This document shows positions 6,644-27,895 of a DNA stretch of 29,622 bases, piece by piece. Numbering within the stretch: the stretch's first letter is position 1; every line of letters starts with the position of its first letter. A program made the translations under genes and the position numbers. The notes below the pieces were generated by a model. That model had not been told where the DNA came from. It ran no database searches and saw only the letters and a program-made list of their open reading frames with translations. Source of the stretch: a virus; IMG/VR virus record IMGVR_UViG_3300034374_002197, positions 1 through 29,622 of that record, one strand, 5' to 3'.

Positions 6644-7195
6644 ATGTGGACATATAATGGACGCACAATCAGAGTCGGCAGAAGTTGGGCTGACGATTCT
6701 GGCGTAAAGCATCCAACGAACTGGTCATCTTGGTCAGCAGACGAAAAAGCCGCTAGAGGTCTGGTGTGGAATCAGGACTTACAGCCTGTACCGTTCGACA
6801 ATCGCTTCTACTGGTCAGCAGGAGTTCCAAAGGCATTAGATGATGTCAATGAAGTAGACGAGGACGGCAATCCTGCACTAGATCCTGACGGTGTACAGAT
6901 CGTCACCAAAGGACTCAAGAGCAATGCCATCGCACAGACGAAAGTGACTGCTAGCGGCTTGCTTGCTCCGACTGATTGGATGGTCATCAAGGCGGCAGAG
7001 GTATCGGGATACACTGTCCCTGCTGAAGTAACAACTTATCGTGCGGCAGTGCGTACAGCATCGAATACCATCGAGACTGCAATCACAGGCGCGGCAGATC
7101 ATGCGGCATTTATGGCTCTCTACAACGCTCCTGTGGATGCTGACGGTAACAATGCTGGAAACGCACCGATCAATGACTGGCCGGAGACGATCTAA
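6644..7195 (+). CDS. fibre-cluster accessory protein, function unknown
   Basis: The protein has 183 residues. The N-terminus (MWTYNGRTIRVGRSWADDSGVKHPTNWSSWSADEKAARGL) followed by DNRFYWSAGVPKAL is beta-rich and tryptophan-rich. The C-terminal half (about 85-165) is helical, with ATDWMVIKAAE-like charged stretches, and resembles the helical tails of phage fibre assembly proteins. It ends PINDWPETI. AGGAGA lies in the 15-base gap after the large adhesin gene. Its TAA overlaps the next ATG. Position, size and architecture suggest an assembly chaperone or accessory for the 836-residue adhesin, parallel to the gene at 2942-3292. This is inference. Confidence 0.55.
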   Translation: MWTYNGRTIRVGRSWADDSGVKHPTNWSSWSADEKAARGLVWNQDLQPVPFDNRFYWSAGVPKALDDVNEVDEDGNPALDPDGVQIVTKGLKSNAIAQTKVTASGLLAPTDWMVIKAAEVSGYTVPAEVTTYRAAVRTASNTIETAITGAADHAAFMALYNAPVDADGNNAGNAPINDWPETI

Positions 7196-8253
7196 TGGCG
7201 ATCAGTAAGATTGGATCAGATGCTTTAGAAGCTGGCGCGGTTGATGCCACAGGGGTGTCTGACTCAGCCAACACCTCTACAGGATTCTTTGCTCTTCCAT
7301 CAGGAACTACGGCACAGCGTCCGGGGTCTCCTGCTGATGGTTATGTGCGGTTTAATACATCAACGTCTGAGCCGGAATGGTATGACGAATTTTCAAGCTC
7401 TTGGGTTAATTTTAGTGACGAGCCTAATCGTAGTATCTCGGTAGATTTTTTAGTTGTTGCTGGTGGCGCTTCCGGGGGTAGATATGGCGCTGGCGCTGGC
7501 GGTGGTGGTGCCGGGGGTTATCGTACATCGGTTGGTACTTCTGGTGACAATTCTTCAGCGGAATCAACTTTATCTTTAGCGTTAGACACCTCATATACCG
7601 TTACTGTTGGCGGGGGCGGTGCCGCAAGATCCGGTTCTGACGCAGTCGGAGAAAATGGTACTAATTCTGTATTTTCCACCATTACATCTACTGGTGGCGG
7701 GGGCGGTGGTACTAACGGTACAGGTAACACTGGTGGATCTGGTGGTGGTGCAGGCGGTACTAATACTTCCGGTGCTTCTGGTACGTCTAACCAAGGTGGT
7801 GACGGCGGCGCAGGACACACATCTGCCAATAACGGCGCTGGTGGCGGTGGCGGCGGTGCTGGTGGCAATGGAAGCGCGGGGACAAGTTCAGGCGGTGGTA
7901 ATGGCGGTGCCGGTTTAACAAGCTCTATTGACTCAGTAGCAAGGGCAGGTGGTGGCGGCGGGGGTTGTGTCGCCGCAGATACTCCGGGCACTGCAAGTAG
8001 CGGAGGTGGCGCTGGATCCACAACTGGAACGGCAACTAGCGGAACGACTAACACCGGTGGCGGTGGCGGTGGCGCAGGAGCCGGTGGAGGTACTTCTGGA
8101 GCCGGTGGATCGGGTGTTGTGGTCATTAAGTATTCAGACACAATTAGCGTTTCTAACCCGGGCGGCGGTTTGACGTTTAGCACCGCGTCTTCAGGCGGGA
8201 ATAAGATAACCACATTTACCGCTGGAACTGGCAATATACAGTTTAGCTTGTAG
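7195..8253 (+). CDS. glycine-rich tail adhesin A
   Basis: The protein has 352 residues. Residues 34-55 (LPSGTTAQRPGSPADGYVRFNT) are a short module shared with the gene at 9050. From VDFLVVAGG (about 83) to GGSGVVVIKYS (about 310) the protein is a glycine-rich domain. It has an early YTVTVGGGG strand, then dense runs such as GGGGGGTNGTGNTGGSGGG and NGAGGGGGGAGGNGSAG. Domains of this composition, as in the phage S16 adhesin, fold as polyglycine-II helix sandwiches whose loops bind outer-membrane receptors. That structure is known for S16, not shown here. The ATG overlaps the previous stop. Antisense proline-rich frames opposite this gene are only by-products of glycine codons. Confidence 0.8.
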   Translation: MAISKIGSDALEAGAVDATGVSDSANTSTGFFALPSGTTAQRPGSPADGYVRFNTSTSEPEWYDEFSSSWVNFSDEPNRSISVDFLVVAGGASGGRYGAGAGGGGAGGYRTSVGTSGDNSSAESTLSLALDTSYTVTVGGGGAARSGSDAVGENGTNSVFSTITSTGGGGGGTNGTGNTGGSGGGAGGTNTSGASGTSNQGGDGGAGHTSANNGAGGGGGGAGGNGSAGTSSGGGNGGAGLTSSIDSVARAGGGGGGCVAADTPGTASSGGGAGSTTGTATSGTTNTGGGGGGAGAGGGTSGAGGSGVVVIKYSDTISVSNPGGGLTFSTASSGGNKITTFTAGTGNIQFSL

Positions 8254-8263
8254 GAAAACAGCA

Positions 8264-8635
8264 ATGGCTCACTATGCTTTTTTAGATGAAAACAATGTCG
8301 TAACCGAGGTAATTGCCGGAAATACGGAAGGCGGACTGATTGATTGGGAATCGCACTATGGTGCTTTCCGTGGTCAGGCTTGTAAGCGCACTAGCTACAA
8401 CACGCACGGCGGAATACACGGATCAGGTGGCACACCATTTCGTAAAAATTACGCAGGCATCGGATACACTTATGACGCTACTCGTGATGCGTTCATTCCA
8501 CCACAGCCTTACGCAAGCTGGGCACTGAACGAAACATCGTGCCTCTGGGAAGCACCTGTTGCATACCCTGATGACGGTAATATGTATCGCTGGGACGAAG
8601 ACACAACCAACTGGGTTGAAATCACTGAGGAGTAA
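8264..8635 (+). CDS. small fibre-cluster protein B1
   Basis: The protein has 123 residues. It starts MAHYAFLDENNVVTEVI, then SYNTHGGIH, RKNYAGIGYTYD, FIPPQPYASWALNETSCLWEA and WDEDTTNWVEITEE. This is a widespread small protein of marine phages, including T4-like cyanophages, of unknown function and usually found among tail-fibre genes. Its C-terminal 64 residues differ from the neighbouring paralogue (8648-9046) at only about eight positions, while the N-terminal halves are diverged. GGAAAA lies upstream of the start in the ten-base gap after adhesin A. Confidence 0.7.
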   Translation: MAHYAFLDENNVVTEVIAGNTEGGLIDWESHYGAFRGQACKRTSYNTHGGIHGSGGTPFRKNYAGIGYTYDATRDAFIPPQPYASWALNETSCLWEAPVAYPDDGNMYRWDEDTTNWVEITEE

Positions 8636-8647
8636 AGGAGACAAGCA

Positions 8648-9046
8648 ATGGCACATTTTGCAAAAGTACAAGACGGCATCGTGACTAGGGTCATTGTTGC
8701 CGAACCAGAATTCTTCGACACATTTGTTGATGACTCACCCGGTCGTTGGCTAAAGACCAGCTACAATATGCGCGGCGGTGTTTACTACGATCCCGCAACT
8801 AACCAACCTGCGGCGGATCAATCTGTCATTACAGGGGACGAGGGCCGTGAGCGTAAGAACTACGCTGGTAAGGGTTATACTTATGACTCAACACGCAACG
8901 CATTTATTCCACCACAGCCTTACGCTTCGTGGACTCTGAACGAAACATCATGTCTCTGGGAAGCACCTGTTGCACACCCTGATGACGGCAATCTGTACGA
9001 GTGGGACGAAGACACAACCAACTGGGTTCAAATCACCGAGGAATAA
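8648..9046 (+). CDS. small fibre-cluster protein B2, paralogue of B1
   Basis: The protein has 132 residues. MAHFAKVQDGIVTRVIVAE is the usual N-terminus of this family (closer to typical members than B1), followed by WLKTSYNMRGGVYYD, an extra loop of about nine residues with an acidic GDEGRE, and the same RKNYAG to ITEE C-terminal block as B1. The DNA of the two blocks (8495-8632 and 8906-9043) matches at about 120 of 138 positions by hand count. AAGGAG seven bases upstream is a strong ribosome site. Function is unknown; fibre-associated by context. Confidence 0.7.
   Translation: MAHFAKVQDGIVTRVIVAEPEFFDTFVDDSPGRWLKTSYNMRGGVYYDPATNQPAADQSVITGDEGRERKNYAGKGYTYDSTRNAFIPPQPYASWTLNETSCLWEAPVAHPDDGNLYEWDEDTTNWVQITEE
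8906..9043 (+). repeat. 138-bp direct repeat, copy 2 (copy 1 at 8495-8632)
   Basis: The 3' part of B2 repeats the 3' part of B1 without gaps, from ATTCCACCACAG to the last sense codon. I count about 18 mismatches in 138 bases. Six of these cluster in one place (GCAAGC versus GCTTCG and the next codons), while stretches such as CTCTGGGAAGCACCTGTTGCA and the GGGACGAAGACACAAC block are identical. This is a recent duplication or gene conversion, and a possible recombination site for swapping fibre cassettes. Confidence 0.8.
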
Positions 9047-9049
9047 TCC

Positions 9050-10084
9050 ATGACCAAAGCTCGCGGCCTGTCAAGCATTAGCCCTGATTCAAAAACCGAC
9101 GCGGTTTATTTGCCTGCGGGCACGACTGCTCAACGTCCAAGTTCGCCTGTTGAGGGAATGATACGTCAAAACACTACCGAAAATGTTGTAGAAACCTATA
9201 ACGGTACTGAGTGGGTCACAGTAGGTACGCAAGCAGTTACTTATACTGTTGATGCGTTGCTTGTCGCAGGAGGCGGGGGTGGTGCAGGATCAGGAAGCGG
9301 TGGTGGCGGAGGCGGTGGTGCAGGCGGAATGCGCTCACTTACTGATGAGTCATTATCCCAAGGCACTACATACGTTATTACTGTTGGAGGCGGCGGGGCG
9401 CAAGGAACTGCCGATACCAATACAGCCGCCGGTGATGGCACTAACGGTGAAGACAGTGTTTTTTCAATCTATACCGCTGTAGGAGGCGGAGGCGGTGGTG
9501 CGGGTGGTGCCGCAAGAACCGGTAAAAGTGGTGGATCTGGTGGAGGCGGCGGTTATAGCGCAGGTCTTGGAGGATCAGGTACTGCGGGACAAGGTAATAA
9601 TGGCGGCAATGCTACATCTGGTACTAACGGTGGCGGTGCAGGCGGTGGTGCCGGAGCAGTAGGCGGAGGAAACCCGGCAGGTACGGCAGGTTCTACTGGC
9701 GGCATTGGAGCTATCTCCACAATTATCTCGTCTACTATTGCAACAGCACAATCCGTAGGAGAAGTCTCAGGATCTGATGTTTACTACGCCGGAGGCGGCG
9801 GTGGTGCTTCTAACGGTAGTGTTGGCCCCGGAGGCTTAGGCGGTGGCGGTAATGCAAGTACAGTATCCGGAGGTACGGCATCGACTGCGGGTTCTCCTAA
9901 CACTGGCGGTGGCGGCGGAGCCGCTTACGATGGTCCAGCCGCATCTGCGGGTGGTTCAGGTGTAGTTATTTTAAGAATGCTCACAGCAAACTACTCAGGC
10001 GCAGTTACAGGATCTCCGACAGTAGTCACGGACGGGGCGGATACAATTTTGATCTACAAAGACTCCGGTACATACATAGCTTAA
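9050..10084 (+). CDS. glycine-rich tail adhesin A', paralogue of 7195-8253
   Basis: The protein has 344 residues. Residues 21-42 (LPAGTTAQRPSSPVEGMIRQNT) repeat the linker module of adhesin A. VDALLVAGGGGGAG (about 66) opens a glycine-rich domain with a TYVITVGGGGAQG strand and many GGGG runs, closing at GGSGVVILRML (about 305). Compared with adhesin A, the glycine-rich loops differ throughout, and a non-glycine segment (AISTIISSTIATAQSVGEV, about 220-238) interrupts the array. The fold expected from family knowledge is a polyglycine-II sandwich with receptor-binding loops. The ATG follows the previous stop by three bases, and a 15-base gap with AAAGGA leads to the next block. Confidence 0.8.
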   Translation: MTKARGLSSISPDSKTDAVYLPAGTTAQRPSSPVEGMIRQNTTENVVETYNGTEWVTVGTQAVTYTVDALLVAGGGGGAGSGSGGGGGGGAGGMRSLTDESLSQGTTYVITVGGGGAQGTADTNTAAGDGTNGEDSVFSIYTAVGGGGGGAGGAARTGKSGGSGGGGGYSAGLGGSGTAGQGNNGGNATSGTNGGGAGGGAGAVGGGNPAGTAGSTGGIGAISTIISSTIATAQSVGEVSGSDVYYAGGGGGASNGSVGPGGLGGGGNASTVSGGTASTAGSPNTGGGGGAAYDGPAASAGGSGVVILRMLTANYSGAVTGSPTVVTDGADTILIYKDSGTYIA

Positions 10085-10099
10085 CTTAAAGGAATCTTC

Positions 10100-10726
10100 A
10101 TGCCCCTAAGCAAGCTCGTCTTTAAACCCGGAATCAATCGAGAAGGGACTAACTACTCGAACGAAGGCGGCTGGCACGATGGCGATAAAATCCGTTTTCG
10201 CTACGGCTACGTCGAAAAGCTAGGCGGTTGGGAAAAGGTCAACCAGAGTGCGCTTGACGGTACTCCCCGTGGTATTCATGACTTCACGACACTTGCTTCG
10301 CAGGACTTTTTATTTGTCGGCACCGAGAAAAAAGCATATCTCGAAGAATCGGGGACCCTGTACGACATCACCCCGTACCGAAGGACCGTTTGGTTACCTT
10401 TTGGAGTAACAGGTGTCGATGCTGGTGGATTCGTCGGCACGGTGACCGTGCAACTTGGTCTACCGTTTGAAGACGGCGTGCTTGAAGTAACAGGCGTATC
10501 TGCAACCGCAGAGCTAGGTATTCTTGAAGCAGTTACCACGCAAACATTTACTGAAACGGCTGTTCAAATGACCGGCGAAGTCGGCACAGTGACTTGGCTG
10601 GATTATGATAATCGCAATGTAACAGTCGATGTCCGAAGCTACAGCGCAGAAGACTCTATTCACATTACAGAGTACACTCAACCTATCGTATCTTCGGTTG
10701 GTACAGTTACGGTTTCGGTGAGTTGA
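10100..10726 (+). CDS. tail structural protein, N-terminal part (split gene)
   Basis: The protein has 208 residues. Residues 1-96 (MPLSKLVFKPGINREGT, GGWHDGDKIRFRYGYVEKLGGW, YDITPYRRT) match the N-terminus of a roughly 700-residue tail/stopper protein I know from marine podovirus-type contigs. In those proteins DITP-R is followed directly by a sequence like the start of the next ORF here. Instead, residues 97-208 are beta-repeat sequence (GVTGVDAGGFVGTVTV, VTGVSATAELG, MTGEVGTVTW, SVGTVTVSVS) resembling the repeats in the first gene of the window. The ORF then stops. AAAGGA about ten bases upstream fits the start. I infer that an inserted repeat segment has split the gene. Confidence 0.7.
   Translation: MPLSKLVFKPGINREGTNYSNEGGWHDGDKIRFRYGYVEKLGGWEKVNQSALDGTPRGIHDFTTLASQDFLFVGTEKKAYLEESGTLYDITPYRRTVWLPFGVTGVDAGGFVGTVTVQLGLPFEDGVLEVTGVSATAELGILEAVTTQTFTETAVQMTGEVGTVTWLDYDNRNVTVDVRSYSAEDSIHITEYTQPIVSSVGTVTVSVS
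10388..10723 (+). repeat. inserted VTG-VGTV beta-repeat segment
   Basis: About 112 codons with a recurring pattern VTGVxAxxxVGTVTV lie exactly between two pieces that are contiguous in related proteins. The repeats are of the same kind as those at 2-133 and 767-964, but more degenerate and with longer spacers. The segment boundaries are my estimate from the point where family similarity stops and restarts. Confidence 0.55.
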
Positions 10727-10727
10727 T

Positions 10728-12281
10728 ATGGCAATTAGTTTTTCAGCAACAAACGGTGATGCAACGCTCACGGTCCACGACCCGTCGCACGGATCTTCTA
10801 CCGGAGATTTTGTCGAGTTTGAAAGCGTTTCCGGCCTGACTTCTCAGTTAAACACCGATATTGAAAACTCAAGTGTTCCGCACGTTATTACGTCTGTGAC
10901 CACAGACACTTATACCTTAGAACTGGCTAATCCGGCCGATGGCGATTTTTCGGAACAAGGGCAAGCCTCTGCTTTTTATTTATTAAGCACGGGTTTGGCA
11001 ACCACAATTCTTGGACCGGGCTGGGGAGCGGGAACATGGGGTCGATTTACTTGGGGTTCTGCCGTGCCGTCACTGGCGGGTGAAACATTGCGTATATGGT
11101 TTGCGGACAATTTCGGTGAAGACCTTATTATGGTTAACGCTGATAATCAGATTTATTATTGGGACGCAACAAGTGGTGTAAACACTCGCGCAATACCTCT
11201 TATTTCTTTATCTGGAGCAAACGAAGTTCCAGTCGTTGCGCGTAAAACCCTTGTTTCAGAAGCTGACCGGCATGTCATTGCATTTGGCGCCAACCCGATT
11301 GGATCGACAGTACAAGACCCGTTACTGATTCGTTTCTCTGACCAAGAGAATCCGGCTGATTGGAATCCAACAGCAACCAACACGGCCGGTGATTTACGGC
11401 TATCTCAGGGTTCAGAGATTATTACCGCTGTCCGTACTTCACGACAAATCTTGGTGTGGACAGACTCCAGCCTACACTCGCTACAGTTTATCGGGCCTCC
11501 GTTTACCTTCGGTACCGCACTACTTGGTGACAACATCCGAATCGCAGGTCCTAACGCCGCTCTTAGCGTTAATGACACCGTGTACTGGATGGGTCAAAGC
11601 AACTTTTACATGTTTGATGGTCGAATTCAGCCAATCCCTTGTTCTGTTCGTGACTATGTTTTTTCAGACATCAATACACAGCAATCTTTCAAGATTTTTG
11701 CGGGATCTCTTGGTTCAGCAAACGAGGTCTGGTGGTTTTATCCGTCAGCCGGATCGGAAGAAAATGACCGTTATGTGGTTTATAATTATGCAGAAAACCT
11801 GTGGTATTACGGGACATTAGCTCGGACTTGCTGGAATGACCGCGCATCGGGGCAACGTTCTTATCCGCAAGCCACGGGACCAGATGGCTATATATATGAT
11901 CATGAGCGCGGATTAGAAGCGGACGGTTCTCCGTTAGAAGCATTTATCACGTCGTCTGATTTTGACATTGGTGACGGTGACCAGTTTATGTTAATAAGAC
12001 GACTGCTCCCGGATCTGTCCTTCCGAGGATCTACTGCGGACAACCCTGAAGTAGATTTCACCGTCACTGCAAAAAACTTTAGCGGAGCCGTAATAGATGA
12101 TGAAGCGTCTGGGACGGTTGTTCGTCAAACATTAGTTGGTGGGACACACGATTATACTAATCAACTATATATGCGAGCCCGTGGTCGTCAACTCGCCTTA
12201 AAAGTTGAATCAGACACGAGCGGTGTGCAGTGGCGGTTAGGGGCGCCACGACTCGACGCAAGAGCGGATGGTAGACGGTGA
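10728..12281 (+). CDS. tail structural protein, main part (nozzle/stopper-like)
   Basis: The protein has 517 residues. It begins SFSATNGDATLTVHDPSHGSSTGDFVEFESVSG, normally internal in the full-length family. The core has WGAGTWGRFTWG, LRIWFADNFGEDLIMV, NQIYYWDA, PADWNP, SLHSLQFIGPPFTF, VYWMGQSNFYMFDGR, YVVYNYAENLWYYGTLARTCW and GYIYDHERGLEADGSP. Repeated Tyr/Trp strands like these suggest a beta-propeller, as in the T7 gp12 nozzle; its position before the ejection proteins fits that. The start has GGTGAG five bases upstream and lies one base past the previous stop in the +1 frame, so reinitiation is likely. The upstream frame is closed by a TGA at 10719. Nozzle versus stopper cannot be decided here. 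Confidence 0.75.
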   Translation: MAISFSATNGDATLTVHDPSHGSSTGDFVEFESVSGLTSQLNTDIENSSVPHVITSVTTDTYTLELANPADGDFSEQGQASAFYLLSTGLATTILGPGWGAGTWGRFTWGSAVPSLAGETLRIWFADNFGEDLIMVNADNQIYYWDATSGVNTRAIPLISLSGANEVPVVARKTLVSEADRHVIAFGANPIGSTVQDPLLIRFSDQENPADWNPTATNTAGDLRLSQGSEIITAVRTSRQILVWTDSSLHSLQFIGPPFTFGTALLGDNIRIAGPNAALSVNDTVYWMGQSNFYMFDGRIQPIPCSVRDYVFSDINTQQSFKIFAGSLGSANEVWWFYPSAGSEENDRYVVYNYAENLWYYGTLARTCWNDRASGQRSYPQATGPDGYIYDHERGLEADGSPLEAFITSSDFDIGDGDQFMLIRRLLPDLSFRGSTADNPEVDFTVTAKNFSGAVIDDEASGTVVRQTLVGGTHDYTNQLYMRARGRQLALKVESDTSGVQWRLGAPRLDARADGRR

Positions 12282-12508
12282 GTATCAAAACAATACGTCC
12301 ATTACTCCCTGCGGCACCGGCGCAATACGACCCCGTTTATGTGCATCAGTTAGCACGGTCTTTGGAAAACTTAATTAACGAAGTCCGCAATCCGTTAACA
12401 GGAATTAACAGTTTGCCAAATGTAAACGCAATTGCCAGTTTAGAAGTTGGCGATTTATATGAAGACAACGGCTTTGTAAAAGTCGTTCGAGCAGAGGATA
12501 AAACATGA
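12278..12508 (+). CDS. small conserved phage protein after the tail gene
   Basis: The protein has 76 residues. It uses a GTG start in a GTGA overlap with the tail gene. The sequence RPLLPAAPAQYDPVYVHQLARSLENLINEVRNP is of a type often found directly after the tail/stopper gene in marine phages: a proline-rich start followed by a helix. The C-terminal half is short strands (ASLEVGDLYEDNGFVKVV). It has no known function. It overlaps the next gene by ATGA. Its tight coupling to the tail gene suggests a tail-completion or assembly partner, which is inference. Confidence 0.6.
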   Translation: MSIKTIRPLLPAAPAQYDPVYVHQLARSLENLINEVRNPLTGINSLPNVNAIASLEVGDLYEDNGFVKVVRAEDKT

Positions 12509-22728: not shown

Positions 22729-23429
22729 GAAAAAAACAAATCGGTTTTGATCCAGAGACGTCCATGTACTGCTTCGGTGGTGGTGGCGGTGGAAATAACT
22801 CCACTAGCGATAGCGCGTATTCAAATCAGCAAACAGGGCAGGGATCGCGGACCACGCAACCCGGACCTAATACGCGTACAGATAGCCGTGGAAACACCGT
22901 GAACTTCAACACGACGCCTGCTACGGTAACAAGCACTCCTAACTATACAAAAACGCTACCTAACGGCGTTGTTGTCGAAGATTTTTCGCGTCCGTTTGCA
23001 GGGCAGGTCAACCTATCTAACCGCGGTACTCCTGAAGTAACAGACTTATCTACACAACGCTCGGCTTTTGCATCGGCGCCAGTTACGCCCACGACACCAA
23101 TGGGTGGTCTTTACGACAATCTAGCGATCAATATGCCAAACGTGACTGTTCCAAACGTCGATGATTTGACTCCGCAAGAAAGAAGATTAATGGATTCCAT
23201 CAATACGCCCATGGGTAATCCAACAACTCCTCAAGAAGCCATGGAACAAGCTTTAGGTGCCGGCCAGTTTGGTGATGGCCGCGTAGGTCTTGGCGGTGGA
23301 TTCTCTATGGGTAAGGTCCCCGGAGGTTTCGGCTTTCAGTTTGATAGGGCTTTCGCACAAGGCGGCCCTGTGACCGCGGGCATCGGATCACTGGGCTTGC
23401 AGATGCGGCCTAGATCAACCAAGTCTTAG
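22707..23429 (+). CDS. glycine/proline/threonine-rich structural-type protein
   Basis: The protein has 240 residues. The first ATG (22707) overlaps the acyltransferase gene by 22 bases. A second in-frame ATG at 22764 begins MYCFGGGGGGNN, the usual N-terminus (MCFGGG-type) of a class of marine phage virion proteins, so the real start may be 22764. Neither has a strong ribosome site. The middle is low complexity Thr/Asn/Pro (TTQPGPNTRTDSRGN, APVTPTTPMGG), and the C-terminus is glycine-rich with RAFAQGGPVTAGIGSLGL. The role is unknown; it is the last gene of the virion block. Its 3' end overlaps the opposite-strand helicase by 20 bases. Confidence 0.6.
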   Translation: MFEDGIVRKKQIGFDPETSMYCFGGGGGGNNSTSDSAYSNQQTGQGSRTTQPGPNTRTDSRGNTVNFNTTPATVTSTPNYTKTLPNGVVVEDFSRPFAGQVNLSNRGTPEVTDLSTQRSAFASAPVTPTTPMGGLYDNLAINMPNVTVPNVDDLTPQERRLMDSINTPMGNPTTPQEAMEQALGAGQFGDGRVGLGGGFSMGKVPGGFGFQFDRAFAQGGPVTAGIGSLGLQMRPRSTKS

Positions 23430-24864
23430 TATCTTCACCTAAGACCTGACCTGCGATATCAATCTTGTCTCGTAAAGCACCGAGGATTTTTTCATCTACG
23501 GTGTTTGGCGTGACAATATCAATGTAAGTGACGTTCTTTTCTTGCCCAATGCGGTGAGCGCGATCTTCTGACTGCAAGCGTATCTCTAAGTCGTAACCGT
23601 TATTGTAGTAGATCATAGTACCTGCTTCGGTCAGGGTAATGCCGTAGCCCCCTGTGCGGGGTTGGCCAACAAAGAATCGTAGCTCGCTGTTAGGATCTTG
23701 GAACGTTTCAACAATCTCTTGCCGTTCATCCTGCGGCGTCTCGCCAAAGTAAATGCGGGACGAGCCTTCGCCATACTTCTTGGTTAGCTCTGAATAAATA
23801 ATCTTCAGATCATGCGTAAAGGTTGCCCATATAATGATCTTGCCAGAAGTTTCTTCAATAATATCAAGCAGTTCTGACAAACGATTGCTCTTTAAAGTAT
23901 GCAAATCACCGGCATCGTCAGGAAGATGTCCACAACAAATTTGCTGTAATCGCATAATTTGGGTTAATACCGACGCAGTTGTGGATAACTCTCCAGACTC
24001 CAGCTTTGCCAAAGCAAGTTTCTGCATTTGTTTGTAGGCTTTGGCTTGCTCATCGGTCAGGCTGACGTTGCGCCGCATGTACACTTTATCTGGCAAATCC
24101 AGACAGTCTGACTTCAGTACGCGATTGCTGAACTTATCGAGTTTTTCGTTTAGCTCATCCAGACGACGGTAGCCGGTGATCTCATTAAAGCTTTTGTGAC
24201 CCATCGTGCGCTTCTGTACAACGGCGTAACGGTTCTGGTAGCCGTAGTACGAGTTAATACCAAGCGCCTTGGGGGACAGGAACGCGCACTGGCTAAACAA
24301 ATCCATCGGGGACTTTGTAATAGGAGAACCTGTGAGGATGCGACGGTACTTGCTGACCTTCAACAGTTCTACAATGTTCGCGGTCCGCTGTGCTTTTCTG
24401 TTCTTAATCGTCGTCGATTCATCAACAATCACTAAATTATCAGGATTCTTTTTGCAGAATTCATACGCGGCTCGCGTACCCCGTGGGGTAGAAAACGCCT
24501 CAACGTTCATCACAAAAATTTTAAGCCCTTCAAAGGCTTCGTAGACTAACTTGACTAGCTCGTCCTGATAACTCTTGGCACCAGAAGGCGTCCAACGGAC
24601 GACCTGCGTTGCAATGCGCTCAGGCAAATGGGCTTCTAATTCTTTGCGAACCCAGTTATCGTAGACGCCCTTCGGAGCAATGATGAGCGCCGCGTCGATA
24701 TGACCTTTTTCATACAACATACCCATCGTATCAATTGTAACTTTCGACTTACCCGTTCCCATCTCCATGAACAGCGCATAGTATTCCGCGGCCCACGAGT
24801 CGCGTAGCGCGTTAAGCTGATGATCATACGGCTTAGTCTTAAATTCATAGTTTTCAAAATTCAT
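23410..24864 (-). CDS. SNF2-type (SF2) DNA helicase/translocase
   Basis: The protein has 484 residues from the ATG at 24862-24864. That start has GGGGA seven bases upstream and lies just after a promoter candidate. The frame stays open to 24924, but those starts fall inside the promoter. Motifs: Q-like YDHQ (12-15), Walker A MGTGKS (35-40), IIAPKGVYDNW (61-71), DEST box (148-151), LTGSP (177-181), motif V GGYGITLTEAGTMIYYN (405-421) and motif VI QSEDRAHRIGQ (431-441). These are the Snf2/RapA-group motifs. Phage members are thought to act in replication, recombination or strand switching; the exact job is unknown. It is the only gene on this strand, convergent with the virion block and divergent from the replication operon. 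Confidence 0.92.
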   Translation of the reverse strand: MNFENYEFKTKPYDHQLNALRDSWAAEYYALFMEMGTGKSKVTIDTMGMLYEKGHIDAALIIAPKGVYDNWVRKELEAHLPERIATQVVRWTPSGAKSYQDELVKLVYEAFEGLKIFVMNVEAFSTPRGTRAAYEFCKKNPDNLVIVDESTTIKNRKAQRTANIVELLKVSKYRRILTGSPITKSPMDLFSQCAFLSPKALGINSYYGYQNRYAVVQKRTMGHKSFNEITGYRRLDELNEKLDKFSNRVLKSDCLDLPDKVYMRRNVSLTDEQAKAYKQMQKLALAKLESGELSTTASVLTQIMRLQQICCGHLPDDAGDLHTLKSNRLSELLDIIEETSGKIIIWATFTHDLKIIYSELTKKYGEGSSRIYFGETPQDERQEIVETFQDPNSELRFFVGQPRTGGYGITLTEAGTMIYYNNGYDLEIRLQSEDRAHRIGQEKNVTYIDIVTPNTVDEKILGALRDKIDIAGQVLGEDTKTWLI

Positions 24865-24876
24865 GTCACTTTCCCC

Positions 24877-24905
24877 TTGACTCTTGCTAATCATAGGATT
24901 ATATA
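24877..24905 (+). promoter_or_regulatory. sigma70-type promoter candidate for the replication operon
   Basis: TTGACT (24877-24882, five of six matches), a 17-base spacer, then TATATA (24900-24905, four of six) lie about 50 bases before the ATG at 24954. It overlaps the minus-strand promoter almost completely, so the two may compete or share a regulator. Just downstream is a short dyad, AAGGC (24916-24920) and GCCTT (24930-24934). Confidence 0.4.
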
Positions 24906-24917
24906 TAGAAATGTCAA
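24890..24917 (-). promoter_or_regulatory. sigma70-type promoter candidate for the SNF2 helicase
   Basis: Read on the minus strand: TTGACA (complement of 24912-24917), a 16-base spacer, then TATGAT (complement of 24890-24895, one mismatch to TATAAT). Transcription would begin near 24883, leaving a short leader with GGGGA before the ATG at 24864. This supports the shorter start of the helicase. Predicted by motif only. Confidence 0.55.
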
Positions 24918-24941
24918 GGCCCAAACGGTGCCTTTAATAAC

Positions 24942-24953: not shown

Positions 24954-25541
24954 ATGAGCGATCTAAACGAATCAGCAGATCTGCTGAGAATGATGGAGCA
25001 GGACACTGCCGAATCAAAACTAGAAACGCTAGACCAAGAAAGGCTTAAAACTGTTGCCTCAATGGCCGTAGCAATAAGAAATAAAGAAGCAGAAATCGAA
25101 GATCTTGAGGCCAAACTCAAGAAAGAGAAAAACGCTCTTTTAAAAATGACTGACGAAGACTTGCCGACCATGTTGACCGAAATTGGTTTTTCATCAATAA
25201 CTTTGGACGACGGCTCAAACGTTACTGTAAAGCAAACGTATGGGGCATCAATCCGCATTGACGATAAGCCGCAGGCTTTCGAGTGGCTCCGCGATAACGG
25301 CTATGACGACATCATCAAGAATCAAGTGATGTGTATCTTTGGCCGCGGCGAAGACGATCAGGCATCTGCCTTCAAGGCCCTTGCATCACAGCAGGGATTA
25401 GTGGCGGAGCAGAAGACTGATATTCATCCGCAGACATTGCGTGCCTTCATTAAGGAACGCGTAGAAAACGGTGACGACTTCCCAATGGAGCTATTCGGCG
25501 CTTGGGTAGGACAACGTGCAGTAATCAAGAGGACTAAATAA
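24954..25541 (+). CDS. coiled-coil early protein, conserved in phages, function unknown
   Basis: The protein has 195 residues. Residues 1-30 are acidic and 30-65 a charged coiled coil (IRNKEAEIEDLEAKLKKEKN). Residues 65-195 are a mixed domain with EIGFSSITLDDGSNVTVKQTY, WLRDNGYDDIIKN, FKALASQQGL, IHPQTLRAFIKERVENGDDFP and ELFGAWVGQRAVIKR. This looks like a family found beside replication genes in many marine and other phages, always unnamed as far as I recall. It is the first gene of the + strand replication operon. Its stop and the next ATG overlap (TAATG), so the two products may form a complex. DNA-replication accessory by context only. Confidence 0.6.
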   Translation: MSDLNESADLLRMMEQDTAESKLETLDQERLKTVASMAVAIRNKEAEIEDLEAKLKKEKNALLKMTDEDLPTMLTEIGFSSITLDDGSNVTVKQTYGASIRIDDKPQAFEWLRDNGYDDIIKNQVMCIFGRGEDDQASAFKALASQQGLVAEQKTDIHPQTLRAFIKERVENGDDFPMELFGAWVGQRAVIKRTK

Positions 25542-26317
25542 TGGCAACATCAAAAGCAGTAGCTGAAAAGCAATCAGGGGCAATTGCGGAATTTGACCCA
25601 ACAATGTTCGAGGCCGATGCCGGCATCGGAACTCGCATGGAGCAAGAAGATCTTGCCCTACCTTTCCTGAAAATTGTTTCGGCGCTCGACCCATTGCTCG
25701 ACGACGAAAACTTTGAAGGACGCAAGGGCGACATCTACAACACGGTCAGCGGTACGGTGTACAGCGGCAAGGAAGGTATTCGGGTGATCCCCTGTGCCTA
25801 TCAGCGTCGTTTTATTCAGTGGGCTCCCCGTGGTCAAGGTAGTGGTGCTCCACAAGCGATCTACGCGCCAAACGAAGATCGTCCAAAGACAACTCGCGAT
25901 CCATCCGATAACCGCGAGTATGTAGACGGCGGGAACGGCGAATACATTGAAGAAACGCATCAGCATTTCGTTATCGTACTCAATGAGGACGGTTCGGCTG
26001 AAACAGCGTTACTTGCAATGAAATCAACGCAGTTGAAGAAATCACGCAAGTGGAACTCAATGGTTGCATCCGCAAAGATGCAGGGAGCCAATGGGCCATT
26101 CACTCCGGCGCGATTTGCTTACACTTACCTGCTGAAAACCCTGTCAGAAGAAAACTCAAAAGGTTCATGGCACGGGTGGGAAATGTCACGTTTAGAGCCA
26201 GTGTCTGACGGTGCTTTGTATATGCAAGCCAAGCAGTTTGCAGAAAGCATTATGGCCGGTGACGTTGTTGTTAAACACGGGGCGGATGAGGAAACAAACA
26301 CTAACCCTGCGTTTTAA
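25541..26317 (+). CDS. candidate ssDNA-binding / replication accessory protein
   Basis: The protein has 258 residues. Residues 30-110 read EQEDLALPFLKIVSALDPLL, GDIYNTVSGTVYSG, IRVIPCAYQRRFIQW, a beta-rich conserved-phage-protein region with exposed aromatic and basic residues. Residues 145-170 and 185-215 (ARFAYTYLLKTLSEE, GSWHGWEMSRLEPVS) continue the fold. The C-terminus is acidic then hydrophobic and ends in phenylalanine (ADEETNTNPAF), like the partner-binding tips of E. coli SSB and T7 gp2.5. Those features, plus its place before a primase, make an ssDNA-binding protein plausible, but I could not recognise an OB-fold outright. A terminator-like stem-loop follows its stop. Confidence 0.5.
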   Translation: MATSKAVAEKQSGAIAEFDPTMFEADAGIGTRMEQEDLALPFLKIVSALDPLLDDENFEGRKGDIYNTVSGTVYSGKEGIRVIPCAYQRRFIQWAPRGQGSGAPQAIYAPNEDRPKTTRDPSDNREYVDGGNGEYIEETHQHFVIVLNEDGSAETALLAMKSTQLKKSRKWNSMVASAKMQGANGPFTPARFAYTYLLKTLSEENSKGSWHGWEMSRLEPVSDGALYMQAKQFAESIMAGDVVVKHGADEETNTNPAF

Positions 26318-26362: not shown

Positions 26363-27895
26363 ATGTCAGTCGAAAAATTTAGTTCTATCTTCGCCGGTCT
26401 GGAACAGGCGTATGGAACTTTTAAAATTGAGAAGAAGACGCAAAGCGGCAAGAGCGCCGGTAAAGCGGCCGTCGTTCGAGAAACACGGACCACGGAACTA
26501 TGGGAAGGTCACTTGTCTGGAACTGGCAAGGGCATCGGTATTATTCCGATTAACGAAGACAACAGTTGTGTCTGGGGCTGTATTGATATCGATCAGTACC
26601 CTTTGGACCACACTGATCTCGTCTCCAAGATCCGTCAGGCCAAACTGCCTTTAGTTGTGTGTCGCTCCAAATCTGGCGGCGCGCATTGCTTTTTGTTTTC
26701 AACCGAGTGGATTGAAGCCAAGCTAATGCAGGAAACTCTGCAAAGCATCTCGACGGCTCTCGGCTACGGTAACAGCGAAATTTTTCCAAAGCAGGTGAAG
26801 CTCCATCTGGATCGTGGCGACATCGGTAACTTTTTGAATCTGCCGTACTACGACGCAGAAGACGGCCTACGCTACGCGATTAAAGACGACGGCACCTCAG
26901 CTACTCTGGAAGAGTTTTTTGCGCTCTACGACGCGCATGTGCAGACTCCGGAGCAAGTTAAGGCTCTGACGCAGAACACCAATGGCCCAGAGATTATCGT
27001 TAAAGACGGGCCGCCATGCTTACAGTACCTGTGTAAAGAAAAAATCTCAGAAGGGGGACGTAACAATGGGCTATTCAATCTGGGGGTCTACCTCCGCAAG
27101 GCGTATCCGGACGAATGGGAAAGTAAGATACTTGAGTACAATGCCCAGTATTTGGCTCCGCCCTTACCACTCAACGAAGTTAATATCGTTGCGAAGCAAC
27201 TTGAAAAAAAGGATTACGCTTACAAGTGCAGTGATGCGCCGATCTGCGCCCACTGCAACAAAGACCTCTGTCAAACGCGTAAATTTGGGATTGGCGCCGC
27301 AAGTCAGGGTGCGGCTATCGCAAATCTTAGAAAGTATAACTCCACACCTCCCGTCTGGTTCATGGACGTCAATGGCGAGCCTCTCGAACTCGATACAGAT
27401 GCGCTATTGTCTCAAGCAACTTTCCAAAAAGCGTGCATGGAACAACTCAATTTCATGCCTCGCACAGCATCAAAACAAAACTGGGAGAGTCGGATTAGCG
27501 CGCTCATGAGCGAGATGCGCGATAATGAAAGCGCAATCATGGAAGTGGCACAGGATGCTTCGACCTCCGGCCAGTTCTACGACTACCTCGAAGAGTTTTG
27601 CCGGCATTTACAGCAAGCGCAGGACAAAGAAGAGATCTTGCTCCGCCGCCCTTGGACCGACGAGGACACTAACAAGACCTATTTCAGACTACGGGATTTT
27701 GAAGCACATCTGCGAAAGAATAAGTTTTTTGAATTTAAATCGCACAAGATTGCTCAACGCTTGCGGGATATCAGCGGCGAAAGCACCGTGTTAAAGATTA
27801 AGGGGCGGGCAGTCCGCGTGTGGTCTATCCCATCCTTTGAATCAGCAGACATAGATCTGAAACCTAAGTTTGACCAAGAAGAGGCCCCATTCTGA
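26363..27895 (+). CDS. archaeo-eukaryotic-type (AEP) DNA primase, no fused helicase
   Basis: The protein has 510 residues. The catalytic motifs are CIDIDQY (metal-binding Asp75 and Asp77), RSKSGGAH with His108, and KLHLDRGDIGNFLNLPYYD (about 146-164), the pattern of AEP primases of the TOTE/phage kind. Residues 220-285 (CLQYLCKEKISEGGRNNGLFNLGVYLR...) resemble a PriCT domain. Cys289, Cys295, Cys298 and Cys303 (with His297) could bind zinc. The last 150 residues are helical with a winged-helix-like end (FRLRDFEAHLRKNKFFEF, IKGRAVRVWSIPSF) and finish DQEEAPF. It would lay RNA or DNA primers for phage replication. There is no C-terminal helicase, so a separate helicase must serve the fork. GAGG lies seven bases before the ATG, and the TGA overlaps the next ATG. 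Confidence 0.88.
   Translation: MSVEKFSSIFAGLEQAYGTFKIEKKTQSGKSAGKAAVVRETRTTELWEGHLSGTGKGIGIIPINEDNSCVWGCIDIDQYPLDHTDLVSKIRQAKLPLVVCRSKSGGAHCFLFSTEWIEAKLMQETLQSISTALGYGNSEIFPKQVKLHLDRGDIGNFLNLPYYDAEDGLRYAIKDDGTSATLEEFFALYDAHVQTPEQVKALTQNTNGPEIIVKDGPPCLQYLCKEKISEGGRNNGLFNLGVYLRKAYPDEWESKILEYNAQYLAPPLPLNEVNIVAKQLEKKDYAYKCSDAPICAHCNKDLCQTRKFGIGAASQGAAIANLRKYNSTPPVWFMDVNGEPLELDTDALLSQATFQKACMEQLNFMPRTASKQNWESRISALMSEMRDNESAIMEVAQDASTSGQFYDYLEEFCRHLQQAQDKEEILLRRPWTDEDTNKTYFRLRDFEAHLRKNKFFEFKSHKIAQRLRDISGESTVLKIKGRAVRVWSIPSFESADIDLKPKFDQEEAPF

Follow-up and report, generated by a model that had tools for sequence, protein, structure and literature searches.

Does the tail gene at 10100-12281 encode a single virion protein that has been broken, or two subunits that together make up a nozzle? 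The tail nozzle is the pore through which DNA exits the virus, and in podoviruses it forms a hexameric ring at the tail tip; to our knowledge, all solved podovirus nozzles are single chains. The locus lies in IMGVR_UViG_3300034374_002197, an incomplete virus record of 29.6 kb that was analysed over its whole length and is referred to below as the window. Here a first reading frame ends and, one base further on, a second opens at +1 relative to it (junction letters ...GGTGAGT TGA T ATG GCA ATT AGT). This is exactly the layout, at the same coordinates, that the original prediction had described: a stop, one base, and an ATG in the +1 frame preceded by a GGTGAG site. The features of the locus are as follows.

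10100-10726, plus strand: ORF1, 208 aa
10100-10390, plus strand: ORF1 N-core (aa 1-97), the first nozzle part, ending just past DITPYRRTV; matches the PHROG 3287 profile at 7-98
10391-10723, plus strand: ORF1 insert or C-terminal tail (aa 98-208), with four degenerate VTG..VGTV units, from the repeat profile and the alignment of split N-halves
10717-10722, plus strand: GGTGAG, a Shine-Dalgarno-like site for ORF2 inside the last ORF1 codons, from anti-SD duplex energy
10724-10730, plus strand: TGA-T-ATG junction, with the ORF1 stop at 10724-10726, one T, and the ORF2 start at 10728
10728-12281, plus strand: ORF2, 517 aa, comprising an accessory beta region (approximately aa 1-120) and the remaining nozzle
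12278-12508, plus strand: small downstream ORF, 76 aa, GTG start, overlapping the ORF2 stop by 4 nt

Elsewhere in the window, the genes at 8264-8635 and 8648-9046 are tandem paralogues (both phrog_7759; 195 nt aligned at 82.6 % DNA identity), and a glycine-rich domain protein lies on either side of the pair, at 7195-8253 and 9050-10084 (region 7195-10084). The only long minus-strand gene (23410-24924) encodes an SNF2-related helicase, which adjoins Pam3 gp33/gp34-like genes (24954-25541 and 25541-26317) and lies near a TOTE-type primase domain protein (26363-27895).

ORF1 and ORF2 match the same profile, PHROG 3287, at 7-98 and 108-524 (E=8e-69 for ORF2), and therefore together make up one full virion protein. 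ORF2 was 38.7 % identical to the stabilization protein of phage DSL-LC04, and a profile built from one-ORF relatives matched two solved structures, 9nwi_Y (E=5e-29) and 8zkk_O (E=3e-13), the nozzles of Pseudomonas phage Pa223 and Vibrio phage VP1 (gp16), respectively. The N-core was 75-81 % identical to that of the one-ORF sisters L098-L103. The predicted structure of the unsplit sister L098, whose identity to the window is approximately 81 % across the N-core and 70 % over the remainder, reached a pLDDT of 85.7 with 51 aligned sequences, and Foldseek returned the Pa223, VP1, SU10, P22 gp10, Sf6 gp8 and cyanophage nozzles as its top matches. Of the earlier description of the gene as 'nozzle/stopper-like', only the nozzle part stands, the fold being that of a nozzle. 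In the L098 model the strands of the N-core run from residue 24 to 89 and close with a strand at 93-99; an accessory beta region follows at approximately 104-186, and then the remainder of the nozzle. The split point falls between strands 93-99 and 104-106, hence where the first sheet gives way to the accessory domain, most of which is absent from the PHROG consensus and from the short nozzles L007, L009 and L010. The same site accepts in-frame insertions in other phages. From the strand order and known nozzle folds, we read the N-core as a probable propeller blade; a model of the N-half by itself was of low confidence and uninformative.

All loci in which both halves could be found were classified, giving 252 distinct loci, 232 of which were a single ORF. 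The remaining 20 were broken, one of them (L072) by an ordinary frameshift within the N-core. With L072 left out, 19/251 loci were split at the site following DITP, a proportion that does not represent a natural frequency since sampling relied in part on split-member queries and some split loci are near-copies. Alignment bore out the expected contiguity: relatives run from DITP-R into SATNG..TVTD..HG within approximately 3-7 codons of one ORF, and the nozzle is a single gene in the nearest cultured relatives with loci examined here (DSL-LC04, CRP-901, MinM2, HTVC027P, HTVC023P and others). Homologues that are separate genes with these repeats, which had been named as grounds for rejecting a split, do exist, yet only as the above minority of a family in which one gene is the norm. 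A scan of host genomes with the N-half gave no matches, and a literature search of partial coverage turned up no description of a nozzle gene in two parts. The junctions of the split loci took six forms.

TGA-T-ATG: window and L013
TAA-A-ATG: L097
TGATG: L190, L191, L346, L348 and L349
TAATG: L193, L194 and L221
ATGA: L255, L257, L258 and L265-L268
TAA-AT-ATG: L308

The spacing between stop and start thus ranged from -4 to +2 nt across the split lineages, with ORF2 offset by +2 except in the window, L013 and L097, where the offset was +1.

These junctions bear directly on whether the split is real. The original prediction had called for a check on a sequencing indel near 10715-10730, and an error of sequencing or assembly that broke one long frame would leave a stop of this kind; the survey does hold one plain frameshift, that of L072. 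Two loci, L011 and L012, were identical to the window across the 13.6 kb compared, although this is weak proof because they may be dependent copies from the same population. Insert, TGA, single T and ATG are all shared by L013, whose DNA is approximately 71-75 % identical, and in L097, whose N-half is 64 % identical, the two frames are separated by TAA-A-ATG. That such diverged loci keep the split excludes an assembly error, and L190, L193, L221, L255, L258, L265-L268 and L308, like L097, are broken at the same site with other stop codons and frames; we regard a technical origin as next to impossible. A natural gene in decay, with nozzle function supplied from elsewhere, would likewise present an ancestral frame interrupted by a stop. 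Both frames are, however, open and each has a start and a Shine-Dalgarno site, whilst comparison of the window with L013 gave dN/dS values of 0.09 (N-core), 0.10 (insert) and 0.05-0.08 (ORF2), with synonymous sites near saturation. Nor was a second nozzle found in the record, incomplete as it is, which gave one nozzle match only. We therefore consider a pseudogene very improbable.

The question then becomes how ORF2 is translated. Stop/start spacing such as that seen here is the geometry of termination-reinitiation, and among gene pairs of this type those for subunits of the same complex are over-represented (PMC10666635). The window pair has the adjacent or overlapping stop and start that characterize coupled genes, as do the other split lineages. 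The anti-SD energy at the ORF2 start was -7.6 kcal/mol in the window, within the range of other window genes, and -12.3 in L013. Within the same genes, 5.6 % of positions equalled or bettered the window site; in most split lineages the corresponding figure was 1-10 %, with a weaker signal in the L190 group and in L097 (20-26 %). The GGTGA of the window, L013 and L265-L268 falls inside the final codons of the repeat tail, where the same nucleotides encode protein and can also act as a ribosome site.

A fused nozzle could alternatively be produced by programmed recoding, whether by a +1 shift at AGT-TGA, by bypass from that AGT to the one at 10737, or by readthrough. The junction in the window and L013 invites this idea, with 22 identical nucleotides between flanks that are approximately 71 % identical and a matching in-frame AGT codon downstream in both; conservation of the start region would account for this identity equally well. 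In L097 the stop is TAA and a second AGT is lacking, the AGT-AGT arrangement is missing from other lineages also, and stop codon, flanking codons and frame offset all differ among lineages, so that no shift site or direction is conserved and a frameshift or bypass is rejected. As each lineage moreover has its own start codon and SD-like site at ORF2, we judge recoding in any form to be improbable.

The sequence between the two halves was examined with a 22-residue profile built from 91 regular units of other phage proteins. Four units were found in the window insert of approximately 110 codons (whole-sequence E=1e-4), at aa 103-118, 130-140, 158-165 and 199-206; the best scored 12.7 bits, compared with at most 9.4 in shuffled sequences. 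The 'VTG-VGTV repeats' of the original prediction are thus present, albeit degenerate. In all 19 split N-halves, one to approximately five VTG..VGTVTV units follow DITP and are succeeded by the stop, with a single unit in L265-L268 and L221. Best units in the other split N-halves scored 6-28 bits, although in L193, L190, L221 and L097 the match is insignificant alone and relies on alignment with other split N-halves. Among one-ORF nozzles the best score was 8.6 bits, from a single unit in CRP-901, which has a different insert, and the next was 2.1; a motif search found VGTV-type units at the split site in 0/232 one-ORF members. In-frame VGTV repeats were considered for the long inserts of CRP-901, HTVC023P, 023Pt_psg01 and L261-L263, and rejected, as these consist of other sequence or of apparently duplicated accessory domains. 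Split and repeat insertion thus always occurred together in our sample. As a separate observation, the post-DITP accessory domain appears to be duplicated in frame in L261, L263, L276, L317 and L336, giving nozzles of approximately 800-930 aa. The 22-residue repeat itself (VTGVSATGxVGTVTV; L112-L186) is widespread, forming regular arrays in proteins of approximately 200-800 aa on many environmental phage contigs, and no Pfam match to the window copy was seen.

A tree of 84 representatives, from which sparsely filled insert columns were left out, indicated that the split state has changed more than once. Four changes of the split label are required, and well-supported branches force at least three of them. 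Clade A comprises the split loci of the window, L097, L190, L193 and L221, with the one-ORF group around L098 nested inside; the split rows of clade B are L255, L258 and L268; and L308 is split whilst its sister L324 is one ORF. By this topology, a nozzle split at the same site is present in at least two family branches other than that of the window. Forcing the nine split rows into one clade cost 403 log units (p-AU 3e-76) and was rejected. Horizontal spread of the whole N-half was also rejected, since a tree of the N-core only recovered the same clades A and B. The repeat, stop and start alone may nevertheless have spread horizontally, and clade A may reflect either an early split with one re-fusion or several splits.

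The small gene following the nozzle offered a further pattern. It ends in a VGTVTV-type unit in 10/10 unsplit clade-A sisters examined (L098, L099, L195, L199, L205, L206, L210, L218, L246 and L253) and in L324, and lacks this unit in L308 and in five split clade-A representatives, the window included. It looks as if one or the other of two adjacent tail proteins carries the VGTV element, but we treat this as a lead only because L268 has the repeat on both its N-half and its small protein, and only three independent pairs exist. The same pattern could arise if the 3' end of a different phage gene (VGTV, stop and start) had been brought by recombination into a permissive loop, leaving a near-neutral by-product whose tail has no role. 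Valine and threonine codons of the repeat (e.g. ACGGTGAC) easily yield GGTGA, and repeat regions evolve fastest (dN 0.32 versus 0.10-0.12), both of which favour this scenario. The tail is nonetheless under purifying selection between the window and L013, at the dN/dS given above, and is found in every split member, and no donor was identified at the DNA level; the neighbour pattern carries the limits already noted. An origin without function is therefore, in our estimation, unlikely.

At the gene level, the structure of the locus, its homology and the natural conservation of the split are firm, as are the strict association of split and repeats in the loci compared and the occurrence of several evolutionary changes. 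The reading we prefer, with a probability of approximately 0.7, is that the nozzle is made from two translationally coupled genes whose products fold non-covalently into one subunit with a free VGTV tail. ORF1 would supply an N-terminal blade-like sheet (aa 1-97) followed by a free C-terminal VTG..VGTV tail. The ribosome would stop at TGA 10724-10726 and reinitiate one base further at ATG 10728, aided by the GGTGAG within the last codons of ORF1, and the ORF2 product would form the remaining bulk of the nozzle. Non-covalent folding of the two halves would then give a single nozzle subunit, from whose body the repeat tail would emerge where the first sheet meets the accessory domain. We infer coupled translation, hetero-assembly, and the exposure and function of the tail from these sequence data: a two-subunit assembly is likely, exposure of the tail at the surface is plausible, and our most likely guess at its role is that of an additional contact strand at the surface of the phage tail. 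The suggestion that the halves are separate subunits is accordingly supported as probable by the match of both to one family, the conserved split and the coupled spacing. The accompanying idea of an extra domain has to be modified, because the repeats do lie between the halves but would constitute the C-terminal tail of the N-half rather than a domain within one chain. A broader generalization, possible but doubtful at present, is that nozzle fission has repeatedly left a first subunit ending in an interchangeable VGTV element, that either the nozzle fragment or its small neighbour must display this element, and that its DNA doubles as the ribosome-binding site of the second subunit.

Recurrent natural fission at one site marks a nozzle boundary that tolerates a free end, and provides a two-part nozzle ready for structural work as well as a clean example of gene fission that is apparently functional via termination-reinitiation. 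The strict tie to one type of repeat raises a testable question about the role of VGTV at the tail. For annotators, a 208-aa 'hypothetical protein' beside a truncated nozzle is no assembly error.

Several known systems resemble parts of this arrangement. The podovirus nozzles (P22 gp10, Sf6 gp8, Pa223, VP1 gp16 and SU10) correspond to it in PHROG 3287 membership, in the Pa223 and VP1 profile matches and in the fold of L098, but are single chains, whereas the window nozzle is carried in two frames with a stop and start between them, an arrangement kept in relatives, and its first product has a VGTV-repeat tail. The nozzle genes of HTVC027P, HTVC023P, CRP-901 and DSL-LC04 have the same N- and C-parts in the same order, with similar neighbours, and some HTVC023P-type marine podophages even carry in-frame insertions at the window's split site; theirs are, however, uninterrupted ORFs with non-VGTV inserts, in contrast to the two ORFs and VGTV repeats seen here. 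Proteins with the 22-residue VTGxxATGxVGTVTV repeat (L112-L186) share the repeat, in that their unit profile matches the N-half tails, but they are other proteins with regular arrays, whilst the window and other split N-halves have one to five degenerate units as the C-terminus of a nozzle fragment. Lastly, coupled gene pairs encoding heteromeric complexes share the spacing of -4, -1, +1 or +2 nt and the SD-like site (PMC10666635), and differ from the window-type pair in that the latter, in which coupling is predicted, stems from the fission of a single structural gene, an event that apparently happened more than once.
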